Source of the DNA: a virus | Virus record (IMG/VR): IMGVR_UViG_3300025671_000284 | Span: 1 to 31,972 of that record | DNA length: 31,972 nucleotides | Direction: 5' to 3' (one strand) | Part shown: positions 2,162-6,886 of the stretch, piece after piece | Layout of the letters: each line of letters starts with the position of its first letter | Position numbering within the stretch: the stretch's first letter is position 1 | The notes under the pieces: generated by a model | Database searches by the model: none | Seen by the model: only the letters and a program-made list of their open reading frames with translations | What the model was told of the DNA's origin: nothing | Translations under genes and position numbers: made by a program

Positions 2162-2301
2162 AACATACTATGCTTATTGGCTGCGCCGCAGTTCTCGTTG
2201 GGTTCTCGGCGTGGTTTCTCCGACACAAAAAGAACACGCTCTTTGATGACATCGACATCAAGTTTAGGCGTGGAGACTTAGGAGGGTGGGGCGATGATTA
2301 A
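2158..2301 (+). CDS. Small single-pass membrane protein (47 aa)
   Basis: A 47-aa reading frame starts at an ATG overlapping the previous stop (ATGA at 2158-2161). Residues 4-21 form one hydrophobic segment (MLIGCAAVLVGFSAWFL) followed by a basic patch RHKK, fitting an N-terminal membrane anchor with the charged tail in the cytoplasm. The tail is acidic then Gly-rich (DDIDIKF, GDLGGWGDD). The segment contains a cysteine at position 9, but there is no clean lipobox context. Its 3' end overlaps the next gene by 8 bases. It may be an early inner-membrane protein; the function is unknown. Confidence 0.55.
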   Translation: MKHTMLIGCAAVLVGFSAWFLRHKKNTLFDDIDIKFRRGDLGGWGDD

Positions 2302-2440
2302 GCTAGACCCGTCGATCACCGACCCGAAAGTGTTAGCGCGGCGCATTGCTGAACTGCATGACCGCGTTGAGCAGCTTGAGGCTGAGATCGAGCGGCTTAA
2401 GATTGAGGGCCAAATGATTGATGAGGGAGACGACTGGTGA
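2294..2440 (+). CDS. Small coiled-coil protein (48 aa)
   Basis: A 48-aa frame runs from ATG 2294 (inside the end of the preceding gene) to TGA 2438-2440, which overlaps the GTG start of the aaRS-like gene. Residues about 16-40 show a regular hydrophobic heptad pattern (ARRIAELHDRVEQLEAEIER), so a short dimeric or trimeric coiled coil is likely. The C-terminus is acidic. Such tiny coiled-coil proteins are common in phage early operons. No specific function is visible; the overlaps on both sides support it as a real gene. Confidence 0.55.
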   Translation: MIKLDPSITDPKVLARRIAELHDRVEQLEAEIERLKIEGQMIDEGDDW

Positions 2441-3132
2441 GTGAGGCGTTATTTCAGCACGGGGGTCTTCGGTTCTGGCACGAACGTGAAATACGGCTGC
2501 GAGAGCATGTGATCGCCGAACTGGCTGCGGCAGTGCGCGACACCTTGACCCGCGAATGGGCTATGTATCGCGTTGAGGGGCCGATCCTGCACCCGCGAGA
2601 TCAAATCTCGCCGTCCTATGACGATGGAGACATTTTCGTCACTAATCACAAGGGCTGGTGCCTACGGGCTGAAACCACACCTTCGAGCTATGCGTATGCG
2701 CGCTGGATGATGAAGCGGGGCGCGGGGTTGCCGTTGTGCATTTGGCAGGCGGGGATTTCGTCGCGGCGCGAGACAAACGACGGGGCCAGCGCGGCCAAAC
2801 TACGGTTCAATTCGTTTTGGCAGATTGAGTTTCAGTGCATTGTGCCTCTGGCAGAGAAGAGGCGCGACGGGGCTTTGCGCGGCAAGTTAATTGAAGCTTG
2901 TCGCCCTGTGGTTGAGCGGGTGACGATGGCGGACACACGGGTTGTTGATAGCGACCGATTACCTTCCTATTCCGAAAGCACACGGGACCTTGAGGTAAGG
3001 CTCGCAAACGATTGGAGGGAAGTCGCGTCTTGTTCGATCCGCACGGACTTTTCGCCTGACACCCGCGTGGTTGAAATGGCCTTTGGGCTTGATCGCCTTG
3101 TGACAATAGCCGGATTAGGAGAGACGAAATGA
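2437..3132 (+). CDS. Class II aminoacyl-tRNA-synthetase-like core protein (glycyl-tRNA-synthetase-like)
   Basis: 231 aa resembling only the catalytic core of a class II synthetase, closest by eye to glycyl-tRNA synthetase. Motif 1-like: YRVEGPILHP, residues 44-53, with the conserved Pro. LRAETTP (76-82) matches the RPET loop of GlyRS. Motif 2-like: an RxE at 110-112, then LRFNSFWQIEF (122-132), matching the GlyRS RVREFTMAEIE region. Then LPSYSESTRDLEV and WREVASCSIRTDF, like the GlyRS glycine-pocket strand, and motif 3-like VVEMAFGLDR (211-220) with the ATP-binding Arg. In GlyRS the motif 3 Glu is followed two residues on by Ser; here it is Ala. The protein is about half the size of a GlyRS and lacks an anticodon-binding domain, so it may activate an amino acid for another acceptor or be a non-tRNA paralogue. 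GTG start at 2437, with GAGGGAG upstream. It overlaps both neighbours by 4 bases. The fold call is fairly sure; the activity is unknown. Confidence 0.75.
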   Translation: MSEALFQHGGLRFWHEREIRLREHVIAELAAAVRDTLTREWAMYRVEGPILHPRDQISPSYDDGDIFVTNHKGWCLRAETTPSSYAYARWMMKRGAGLPLCIWQAGISSRRETNDGASAAKLRFNSFWQIEFQCIVPLAEKRRDGALRGKLIEACRPVVERVTMADTRVVDSDRLPSYSESTRDLEVRLANDWREVASCSIRTDFSPDTRVVEMAFGLDRLVTIAGLGETK

Positions 3133-3263
3133 CCGACGATGAGAGCGAGCCAGGTTCATGGAAACTAGCTCTAGAGTTAGGTCCGTGGCGCAGGATTGGT
3201 AAGAATACCTACACAAACGAGAAGAATGAAAATGTCCGAGACGAAGATACGACTACTGAATAA
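3129..3263 (+). CDS. Possible small hypothetical protein (44 aa)
   Basis: A 44-aa frame opens at an ATG overlapping the stop of the aaRS-like gene (ATGA, 3129-3132) and runs to TAA 3261-3263. It is hydrophilic, with an acidic N-terminus (MTDDESEPGSW), one Trp-rich stretch (ELGPWRRIGKN) and an acidic tail. Its last 32 bases overlap the start of the DnaA-like gene, an overlap longer than the others in this operon. It may be a real coupled gene or a chance frame. Support comes from the overlapping start and lack of any other gene in 3133-3231; no family is recognized. Confidence 0.4.
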   Translation: MTDDESEPGSWKLALELGPWRRIGKNTYTNEKNENVRDEDTTTE

Positions 3264-3633
3264 GGCGAGTGAACTGTTTGATCTGTCTGTGAAGGAGATA
3301 GCCGGAAACGCTAGATATAAATACCTTATGCCGGCTCGCTTTGCGATGTACAAAACTTTGCGTGAGCGGGGCTGGAGCTACCCGCGTATCGGTAAGCTGT
3401 TCGGCGGCAAGGATCACTCGACAATCATCCACGGCGTTCGTCGTGCAGACTATATGATTGAGAAAGACGCAGACTATGCGGCCAAGGTAAAGGCGTTGAC
3501 GGAGACACGGCTCACGCCCACTGCGTTGACAAAGGAAGAGGTCGAAGCACAACTACTCGCAATGCGTAAGAAGACCGGCATCCCTGAGCTAGAGGAAGAT
3601 GACGATTGGCTAGGGGATTTAATTCGTGACTGA
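3232..3633 (+). CDS. Stand-alone DnaA domain IV (origin-binding helix-turn-helix) protein
   Basis: 133 aa. Residues about 33-74 match the DNA-binding domain IV of bacterial DnaA: ARFAMYKTLRERGWSYPRIG and then FGGKDHSTIIHG, which is the DnaA signature helix (FGGRDHTTV-H-A in the bacterial family). There is no AAA+ ATPase domain, so it cannot act as a full initiator. It would bind DnaA-box-like DNA as an origin-recognition, repressor or anti-initiation factor. The C-terminal 55 residues are acidic (LEEDDDW) and may contact a partner. The frame extends upstream to a TTG at 3196, but GAGAAG at 3219-3224 is 7 bases before ATG 3232, so this start is preferred; ATG 3226 is possible. It overlaps the next gene's GTG. 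The domain call is strong; the role is inferred. Confidence 0.8.
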   Translation: MSETKIRLLNKASELFDLSVKEIAGNARYKYLMPARFAMYKTLRERGWSYPRIGKLFGGKDHSTIIHGVRRADYMIEKDADYAAKVKALTETRLTPTALTKEEVEAQLLAMRKKTGIPELEEDDDWLGDLIRD

Positions 3634-5570: not shown

Positions 5571-5602
5571 GGGGCCGAGGCGCGTTGGGGTGTCTCGGTC
5601 CC
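5571..5602. terminator. Convergent hairpin terminator between the two operons
   Basis: GGGGCCGAG (5571-5579) pairs fully with CTCGGTCCC (5594-5602), including one G-U pair, around a 14-base loop. It lies exactly between the stop of the SSB gene and the stop of the leftward helicase gene, where the two transcripts meet. The downstream T-run is short (TTAAT), so termination may be weak or depend on other factors. The helicase stop codon at 5603-5605 abuts the stem, so the hairpin could serve both strands. Confidence 0.55.
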
Positions 5603-6886
5603 TTAATCCAACGCCTCGGAGATCATCCGAGCTTTCCGCCCAAGTGTCCGTGCAACGATTTCGTCAACCGAATTAGCTAACGCAAACGACCGCACGATCA
5701 CTGGCTTGGACTGGCCGATCCGATGCGATCTCTTTGACGCCTGAGCGTTAACCGCCGGCACCCAATCCATCTCCGCGAACACAACCTGGTTGGCCGCAGT
5801 CAACGTGATGGCTGTCGAACAGGCCGTGATCTGGCCGATAAAGACGCGGCAATCTTTGTCGTTCTGGAAGCGGTCGATCTCTTCTTGGCGTTCGCCCGCT
5901 GTCATGCCGCCCACGATGTACGCCGGATTGAACTCCGCTAGTCCTTCACGCAACGCTTCGAGTGCTGCACGGTGGTAGGCGAACACTACGACTTTATCGT
6001 AAGCGTTGTCTTTTAGCTCGCCCGCTAACTGCGCAGCCACAGGCTTCGCCTTGGCCAGCGCGGTCAGCCGCCTTAGCGACGCCATGTGCGGCGCGATGTC
6101 GTCCAGTTTGTTACTTACATCATCTTGCGTGACTGCGCTTTGCAGAATAAGCTCGACGGCTTCCCGCTCTTGCTCGTTCTCGATGTGCTTCATATCGTCC
6201 CAGCCATCGACCTCGATGACTGCGTCCTGCCACCAGAGCGGGGGCAGTTCTGTCAGCACATTCTCGGACTTACGGCGTAACATAATTGAGGACAGGATCG
6301 TCTTGAACTCGCCCATCCTCTCGGCCTTGTTGCCGAGAACCTTCAGCCCGAACTGCCCGCGCCACGTCTTGCAAAAGTAGAGAGTGTAGTCCGTAAAGTT
6401 GAGAGGGTACTGCCAGATGGCCTTGAGATGTGTCCAAAAATCACTGACATCGTTAGGAATGGGAGTGCCAGAAAGAAGCCAGACACGATCAGCAAAACGC
6501 ACAAGACCATCCCCACGGCAAAACTGGCCGTAGATATAACGAGTGCGCTTTGCCTGACGGTTCTTGAGATAATGCGCTTCGTCCAGGACCAGAACGTCAG
6601 GTTCAAACTTGGCAATCTCATTGCGCACCTCCTTGGACTGCGTCATCTTGTCATATGAAAAGACTTTTATCTCGCGCTCAACGCTACTCCATTTATCAAA
6701 CTCACGACGCCAGTTGATCTTGGCGATGGCGGGGCAGATCACAACGACTTTCTTCAGGCCGAGCTTATCACAAGCCGCGATCACCTGAATAGTCTTACCT
6801 AGTCCCTGCTCATCTGCCAGAAATGCGGCGGGATTATCAGCGAGGAAATCAGTCCCCGTTTTCTGATAGTCGAATAAATGATCCAT
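5603..6886 (-). CDS. SNF2-family (superfamily 2) DNA helicase/translocase
   Basis: 427 aa. It contains the full SNF2 motor: motif I DEQGLGKT (about residue 25), motif Ia VVICPA, motif II DEAH (about residue 99), motif III LLSGTPI, and in the second lobe VVVFAYHRAALEAL, motif V-type ACSTAITLTAANQVVF and motif VI QASKRSHRIGQ, the hallmark of SNF2 rather than DEAD or RecG helicases. It is short, close to the SMARCAL1-like core without accessory domains. Phages with DUF2800/DUF2815 modules often encode one; it probably remodels forks or anneals and displaces strands using ATP. It is the last gene of the leftward array and begins 38 bases inside the RuvC-like gene. Start ATG 6886. Confidence 0.92.
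   Translation of the reverse strand: MDHLFDYQKTGTDFLADNPAAFLADEQGLGKTIQVIAACDKLGLKKVVVICPAIAKINWRREFDKWSSVEREIKVFSYDKMTQSKEVRNEIAKFEPDVLVLDEAHYLKNRQAKRTRYIYGQFCRGDGLVRFADRVWLLSGTPIPNDVSDFWTHLKAIWQYPLNFTDYTLYFCKTWRGQFGLKVLGNKAERMGEFKTILSSIMLRRKSENVLTELPPLWWQDAVIEVDGWDDMKHIENEQEREAVELILQSAVTQDDVSNKLDDIAPHMASLRRLTALAKAKPVAAQLAGELKDNAYDKVVVFAYHRAALEALREGLAEFNPAYIVGGMTAGERQEEIDRFQNDKDCRVFIGQITACSTAITLTAANQVVFAEMDWVPAVNAQASKRSHRIGQSKPVIVRSFALANSVDEIVARTLGRKARMISEALD

Follow-up and report, generated by a model that had tools for sequence, protein, structure and literature searches.

The window that we analyzed, a 31,972-bp virus record from IMG/VR, carries a gene for a 231-residue class II synthetase core that we call mini-GlyRS (Table 1). 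Its neighbors encode a family A-like DNA polymerase, whose gene lies 685 bp upstream, a stand-alone DnaA C-terminal domain, a DUF2800 (PD-(D/E)XK) protein, an Enc34-type ssDNA-binding protein, and an SNF2 helicase, together with a weak RuvC-like match. The overlap between the start codon and a 48-aa upstream ORF suggests that the two may be translationally coupled in a local operon. The stop codon of the mini-GlyRS gene overlaps an ATG as well (ATGA), and the overlaps at its two ends place the gene inside a tightly packed operon. Neither ARAGORN nor Rfam found a tRNA gene in the window, and a hidden tRNA there was rejected.

Table 1. Features at the mini-GlyRS locus, in window coordinates; residue numbers refer to mini-GlyRS
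Feature	Position	Strand	Basis or remark
Upstream 48-aa ORF; its TGA overlaps the mini-GlyRS GTG start (GTGA)	2294..2440	+	Sequence reading
GGAG, likely Shine-Dalgarno; 5' edge of the stretch common to unrelated phages L001/L002	2426..2429	+	Sequence reading; breakpoint comparison
Mini-GlyRS core gene, 231 aa	2437..3132	+	GTG start, TGA stop
Motif 1, VEGPILHPRD, residues 46-55	2572..2601	+	Alignments
RAETTP, residues 77-82, equivalent to GlyRS RPETAQ; E79 corresponds to human GlyRS Glu245 (glycine pit)	2665..2682	+	Alignment and literature
Motif 2, residues 107-133: R110, E112, R123, Q129, E131 (human Glu296), Q133	2755..2835	+	Invariant in 93/93
SDRLPSYSESTRD, residues 172-184; family counterpart of GlyRS EKLSHYAERTVD	2950..2988	+	Alignments
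REVASCSIRTDF, residues 194-205; E195 and R202 common to GlyRS, S198 and S200 family-specific	3016..3051	+	Alignments
Motif 3, VVEMAFGLDR, residues 211-220; E213 (human Glu522), A215 (human Ser524 position), R220 (ATP-binding)	3067..3096	+	Alignments
Stand-alone DnaA C-terminal (DNA-binding) protein, just 3' of the mini-GlyRS gene	3196..3633		Bac_DnaA_C, 2.8e-12

As a single sequence, the window protein matches the NCBIfam glycine--tRNA ligase family at 4e-6 and, weakly, Pfam tRNA-synt_2b at 0.0011; its 25.9 bits are below the curated GlyRS family cut-off of 312 bits. A family profile built from 84 members finds solved GlyRS structures as its top matches (1.8e-17), with SerRS, PylRS, and ProRS far behind. 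The AlphaFold2 model of the protein (pLDDT 94.8, pTM 0.92) is most similar among PDB folds to the M. tuberculosis GlyRS (E 2e-13); the M. thermoresistibile GlyRS is also among the best matches, and ProRS, PylRS, and PheRS follow. The closest viral fold match is a 222-aa protein of an uncultured phage, and the next is the Orpheovirus GlyRS. Judged from the sequence, the resemblance to class II synthetases far exceeds chance, and the profile, the model, and the fold search agree on a class II fold with motifs 1-3. The initial annotation is thus borne out in the ORF, its exact coordinates, and its assignment as a GlyRS-like core without an anticodon domain. The six reference GlyRSs that we aligned continue for 114-128 residues past its C terminus, where their anticodon domain lies, and we found no recognizable tRNA-binding domain in mini-GlyRS.

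Residue conservation was counted among 93 family members less than 90% identical to one another, with the six reference GlyRSs aligned for comparison. Invariant in all 93 are P99, S108, R110, E112, R123, F127, Q129, E131, Q133, P176, Y178, T182, D184, E195, S200, R202, D204, E213, G217, and R220, so that the motif 2 and motif 3 arginines are retained throughout; E79 and Ala215 are each kept in 92/93. E79, R110, E112, E131, R202, E213, and R220 (92-93 of the 93 members) are identical in all six reference GlyRSs, as is R123 of motif 2. In human GlyRS, Glu245, Glu296, and Glu522 hold the amino group of glycine in a three-glutamate pit (PMC4938167). Their counterparts in mini-GlyRS are E79, E131, and E213, and all six reference GlyRSs have them. 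No invariant Cys or His, and hence no candidate zinc site, is present across the 92-93 members.

The alignments refine the motif assignments of the initial annotation. Motifs 1-3 are all present, but LRAETTP (residues 76-82), listed as the first of them, is the GlyRS "LRPETAQG" amino-acid-binding segment, and motif 1 lies further upstream. The GlyRS-like spacing holds from E79 to E131, which agrees with human E245 to E296, but not between motifs 2 and 3, which lie much closer together in mini-GlyRS because the insert that separates them in GlyRS is missing. The Ser-to-Ala change in motif 3 is likewise real, with its Glu kept, but its reading as a sign of altered specificity is not supported. 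This position in human GlyRS, Ser524, has been termed a "non-conserved Ser (or Ala)" (PMC4938167), and actinobacterial GlyRSs have Ala there (EPAAG). Because genuine GlyRSs carry either residue, the change is not diagnostic, and we rejected it as a specificity switch. The hallmarks of the family are instead ETTP in place of ETAQ, S198/S200 in place of G/A, P176, and the lack of inserts and anticodon domain. Overall, mini-GlyRS shares with alpha2-type GlyRS (TIGR00389/NF003211) the fold, motifs 1-3, the RPET segment, an RTDF-like segment, and the glycine-pit glutamates. It differs in its length (231 residues versus 460-580), in having neither the anticodon domain nor the N-terminal and internal inserts, in its score (26 bits against the cut-off of 312), and in its own S198/S200 and TTP signatures.

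Selection on the gene is purifying in both phage and bacterial copies. Between the window gene and that of L001 there are 17 synonymous and 3 nonsynonymous changes, for a dN/dS of 0.05; the range is 0.05-0.12 against L001-L003, and the value against L004, a 57-codon fragment, is 0.30. Bacterial copies give 0.06-0.17 in nine pairs of equal length, pairs of unequal length having been left out as not codon-aligned. With the ATP-binding residues and the three glycine-pit glutamates essentially invariant and the gene under purifying selection, mini-GlyRS is very likely an active enzyme, in keeping with its initial description as an amino-acid activator. Adenylation activity is likely, and the pit points to glycine as the likely substrate.

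The gene also moves on its own. In L001 and L002, the DNA shared with the window begins at the ribosome-binding site (2426); in L003 it stops at 3133, one base beyond the stop codon. The flanks at these edges are unrelated; L004-L006 have flanks in common with the window. Breakpoints at the ribosome-binding site and the stop codon, next to unrelated flanks, indicate that a single ORF has been exchanged between otherwise different phages. Near-identical copies occur in unrelated phages, and the contexts of relatives are quite different. The position beside the DNA polymerase gene is therefore incidental, and the meaning that had been read from a "replication operon" is not supported. Because the gene moves alone, no phage-specific partner protein seems to be needed.

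These data bear on the idea of a catalytically silent accessory subunit. The accessory subunit of DNA polymerase, PolG2, is GlyRS-like, and the location of the window gene downstream of a family A polymerase gene would suit a subunit of this kind or one like HisZ. Such a role is nonetheless extremely improbable, given that the catalytic residues are all invariant, that the gene is exchanged alone and its relatives mostly do not lie beside polymerases, and that the C-terminal domain of PolG2 is absent. The HisZ family (TIGR00443) is matched at only 1.3e-5, and the catalytic residues of motifs 2 and 3 are invariant rather than lost. We therefore rejected a polymerase-accessory role: the gene moves between phages by itself, and its active site is intact. 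A place among defense-system components was discarded as well, since mini-GlyRS has no PADLOC match.

Relatives of mini-GlyRS are found in Caulobacter Bertelyvirus, Brevundimonas jumbo phages, Sinorhizobium phage Phosso, Xanthomonas phage XbC2, and two uncultured phages of ~635 kb, at 32-46% identity. IMG/VR holds about 98 loci (30-99% identity), and bacterial genome assemblies hold 79, mainly from Rhizobium, Devosia, and Phenylobacterium. The phage records that carry the family are between tens of kilobases and 600 kb long; family records are mostly annotated as "hypothetical" or "serine-tRNA synthetase". In a tree rooted on GlyRS, the family forms one clade whose deep branches are phage. Nearly all bacterial copies fall into one group nested among huge-phage sequences, the Paraburkholderia and MAG copies standing separately; one of the 79 bacterial-assembly loci, on a short contig of a cyanobacterial MAG (L099), groups with phages. 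The bacterial copies were thus likely captured from phages, a direction that is likely rather than proven because the trees are quick ones built on few columns, with the GlyRS outgroup on long branches.

Bacterial copies are rare, occurring in 2 of 200 Rhizobiaceae-level genomes sampled, the center genome being one of the two. Nine gene-bearing assemblies yielded no full-length alpha2 GlyRS above the cut-off, and mini-GlyRS was their best GlyRS-like match. A shared bacterial operon was rejected, because the flanks differ between two Rhizobium groups and are different once more in Devosia, Phenylobacterium, and Paraburkholderia. Rhizobium sp. BK313 and SL86 have two copies each (L166/L170 and L167/L168), and a transposase-like ORF (IS110-like by eye) lies about 0.5 kb upstream of the copy at L168. 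Four Rhizobium copies (L014, L161, L175, and L177) are apparently truncated, suggesting decay of the gene in some bacteria.

Each of the 36 large phage records that we searched contains tRNA genes (2-69). In five of ten of these phages the mini-GlyRS gene lies <1 kb from a tRNA, against 1.0 expected by random placement (P 0.0014); these ten were not picked by distance, but local gene-tRNA distances were known beforehand. The nearest tRNA in the other five is 9-67 kb away. No tRNA gene is present in 12 of 23 gene-bearing records that are mostly small and in many cases fragments, and of the 79 bacterial loci, only 1 has a tRNA closer than about 6 kb.

Nine phages belonging to a single clade (L011, at 5591-5666, and L049, L053, L054, L058, L059, L061, L066, and L070) have a tRNA with a CUA anticodon and discriminator G73 at 53-1875 bp upstream of the mini-GlyRS gene. 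In the records scanned in full, these tRNAs lie outside the main tRNA arrays, and a second CUA tRNA occurs elsewhere in several of the nine phages. The tRNA is part of an island, at 1076-10593 in L011 and at syntenic loci, that encodes an RNA ligase, an R2K ATP-grasp protein (a predicted aminoacyl ligase), a full-length CysRS, tRNA(CUA), mini-GlyRS, a tyrosine phosphatase, and a peptidyl-tRNA hydrolase. Since the whole island is syntenic throughout the clade, a specific link between tRNA(CUA) and the enzyme is only suggestive, and the case for it is weakened accordingly.

This arrangement raises the idea that in one jumbo-phage clade mini-GlyRS might charge the adjacent amber tRNA for programmed UAG read-through, as a GlyRS-derived analog of PylRS or CysRS*. 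CysRS* of Desulfobacterales, which is paired with a SelC* tRNA (PMC9437257), offers a precedent as a synthetase that lacks an anticodon domain and whose gene is coupled to that of an unusual tRNA that reads a stop codon, a coupling seen here in one phage clade only. It differs in being a class I, cysteine-specific, bacterial enzyme, and a functional coupling in the phage clade is putative. The catalytic core of PylRS is likewise compact, of class II, and independent of anticodon reading; however, its profile match to the family is 3.5e-5, as opposed to 2e-17 for GlyRS, and its pocket accommodates a bulky amino acid. A CUA tRNA adjoins the gene in the nine-phage clade and is absent beside most members. 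No CUA tRNA of this kind occurs anywhere in about half of the large gene-bearing phages, and L081, a close relative of the clade, has none nearby. UAG is also still a common stop, terminating about a fifth of conserved ORFs, a mechanically compiled set with some spurious ORFs, and 4/69 annotated Phosso genes; global UAG recoding in these phages is not supported. Together with the synteny of the whole island, these observations make such read-through quite improbable. We consider just as doubtful the proposal that mini-GlyRS and the CUA/G73 tRNA of this giant-phage clade form a natural orthogonal pair that decodes selected host or phage UAG codons as glycine or as some other small amino acid; elsewhere in the family, other tRNAs would be charged by way of the acceptor stem only. 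If true, phages would carry a stop-codon-decoding system derived from GlyRS.

Our leading, although tentative, explanation is that mini-GlyRS is an autonomous core derived from alpha2-type GlyRS that would form glycyl-adenylate and then pass the glycyl group to RNA, most likely tRNA. The GlyRS-top profile and fold matches, the intact active site, purifying selection, single-gene mobility, and the enrichment of tRNA genes nearby in large phages form its basis. In this scheme, the enzyme would take up ATP together with a small amino acid, glycine being the likeliest, in the three-glutamate pit, and its class II core, assumed from motif 1 to dimerize, would convert ATP and glycine to glycyl-AMP and PPi. 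The glycyl group would then be transferred without anticodon reading to an RNA recognized through its acceptor stem, most likely the 3' end of one or more host or phage tRNAs, and the supply of charged tRNA would be supported or altered during infection. An RNA acceptor, and tRNA in particular, is weakly inferred from the tRNA proximity and the island; against it stand the lack of a recognizable tRNA-binding domain and the many loci at which tRNA genes are far away or absent.

The main rival is an acceptor other than tRNA. As with EpmA/PoxA, AsnA, or the amino acid:carrier protein ligases, glycyl-adenylate would then be spent on a side chain of some protein, on the phosphopantetheine of a carrier protein, or on a small molecule such as a polyamine. 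Free-standing copies in small phages and bacteria, with no tRNA linkage, favor it, and the active site is intact. The amino acid:carrier protein ligases have similarly lost the anticodon domain, retaining a class II core minus the tRNA-binding domain, and some use glycine. They are zinc-dependent, however, and have a carrier-protein partner, whereas mini-GlyRS has no invariant Cys or His able to form their zinc site, and a non-exhaustive scan of the neighbors recognized no gene for a carrier protein, for EF-P, or for any other fixed partner. We regard this reading as possible but unlikely. The survey of homolog neighborhoods returned differing contexts and, at the loci examined, no conserved neighbor that would name the acceptor.

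A transfer of glycine to a modified tRNA base, rather than to the 3' end, is also conceivable but improbable. GluQ-RS (YadB) provides a class I precedent for a free-standing catalytic core that lacks an anticodon domain and acts on tRNA, and enrichment next to tRNA genes would fit such an activity. GluQ-RS differs, however, in using glutamate and targeting the queuosine of tRNA-Asp; moreover, mini-GlyRS shows no conserved tie to base-modification genes at the loci examined, and the papers searched describe no such glycylated-base modification.

Compact synthetase-derived enzymes are already known (GluQ-RS, EpmA, the amino acid:carrier protein ligases, and CysRS*), and synthetase-like cores without tRNA-reading domains have repeatedly been found to do unexpected jobs. 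In the open papers searched, we found no description of the GlyRS-derived phage family; the initial view that its function is undescribed stands within that scope. No PHROGs family was found for the window protein, and single relatives give marginal matches only. The family is compact and well conserved, has an apparently intact glycine site, and has spread through phages and been taken up by soil bacteria. It also bears on the puzzle of what jumbo-phage suppressor tRNAs target; those of XacN1, for example, have no known target (PMC5852040). The small size of mini-GlyRS and the occurrence of family members in model phage-host systems (Caulobacter, Sinorhizobium, and Rhizobium) make its substrate directly testable.

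Two further observations concern the surroundings and the fold. NAD-salvage genes (NMN adenylyltransferase/NadR, PnuC, or nicotinamide phosphoribosyltransferase) lie a few kilobases from the mini-GlyRS gene in three different phages (L008, 2116-4718; L012, 605-2450; and L025, 4580-9528, the last assigned by eye). Four viral proteins of 185-217 aa in BFVD (A0A141HRQ2, A0A2I7SAH4, A0A292GIB7, and K7QJG2) have a class II-synthetase-like fold with little sequence identity and are possibly further phage families of this fold.
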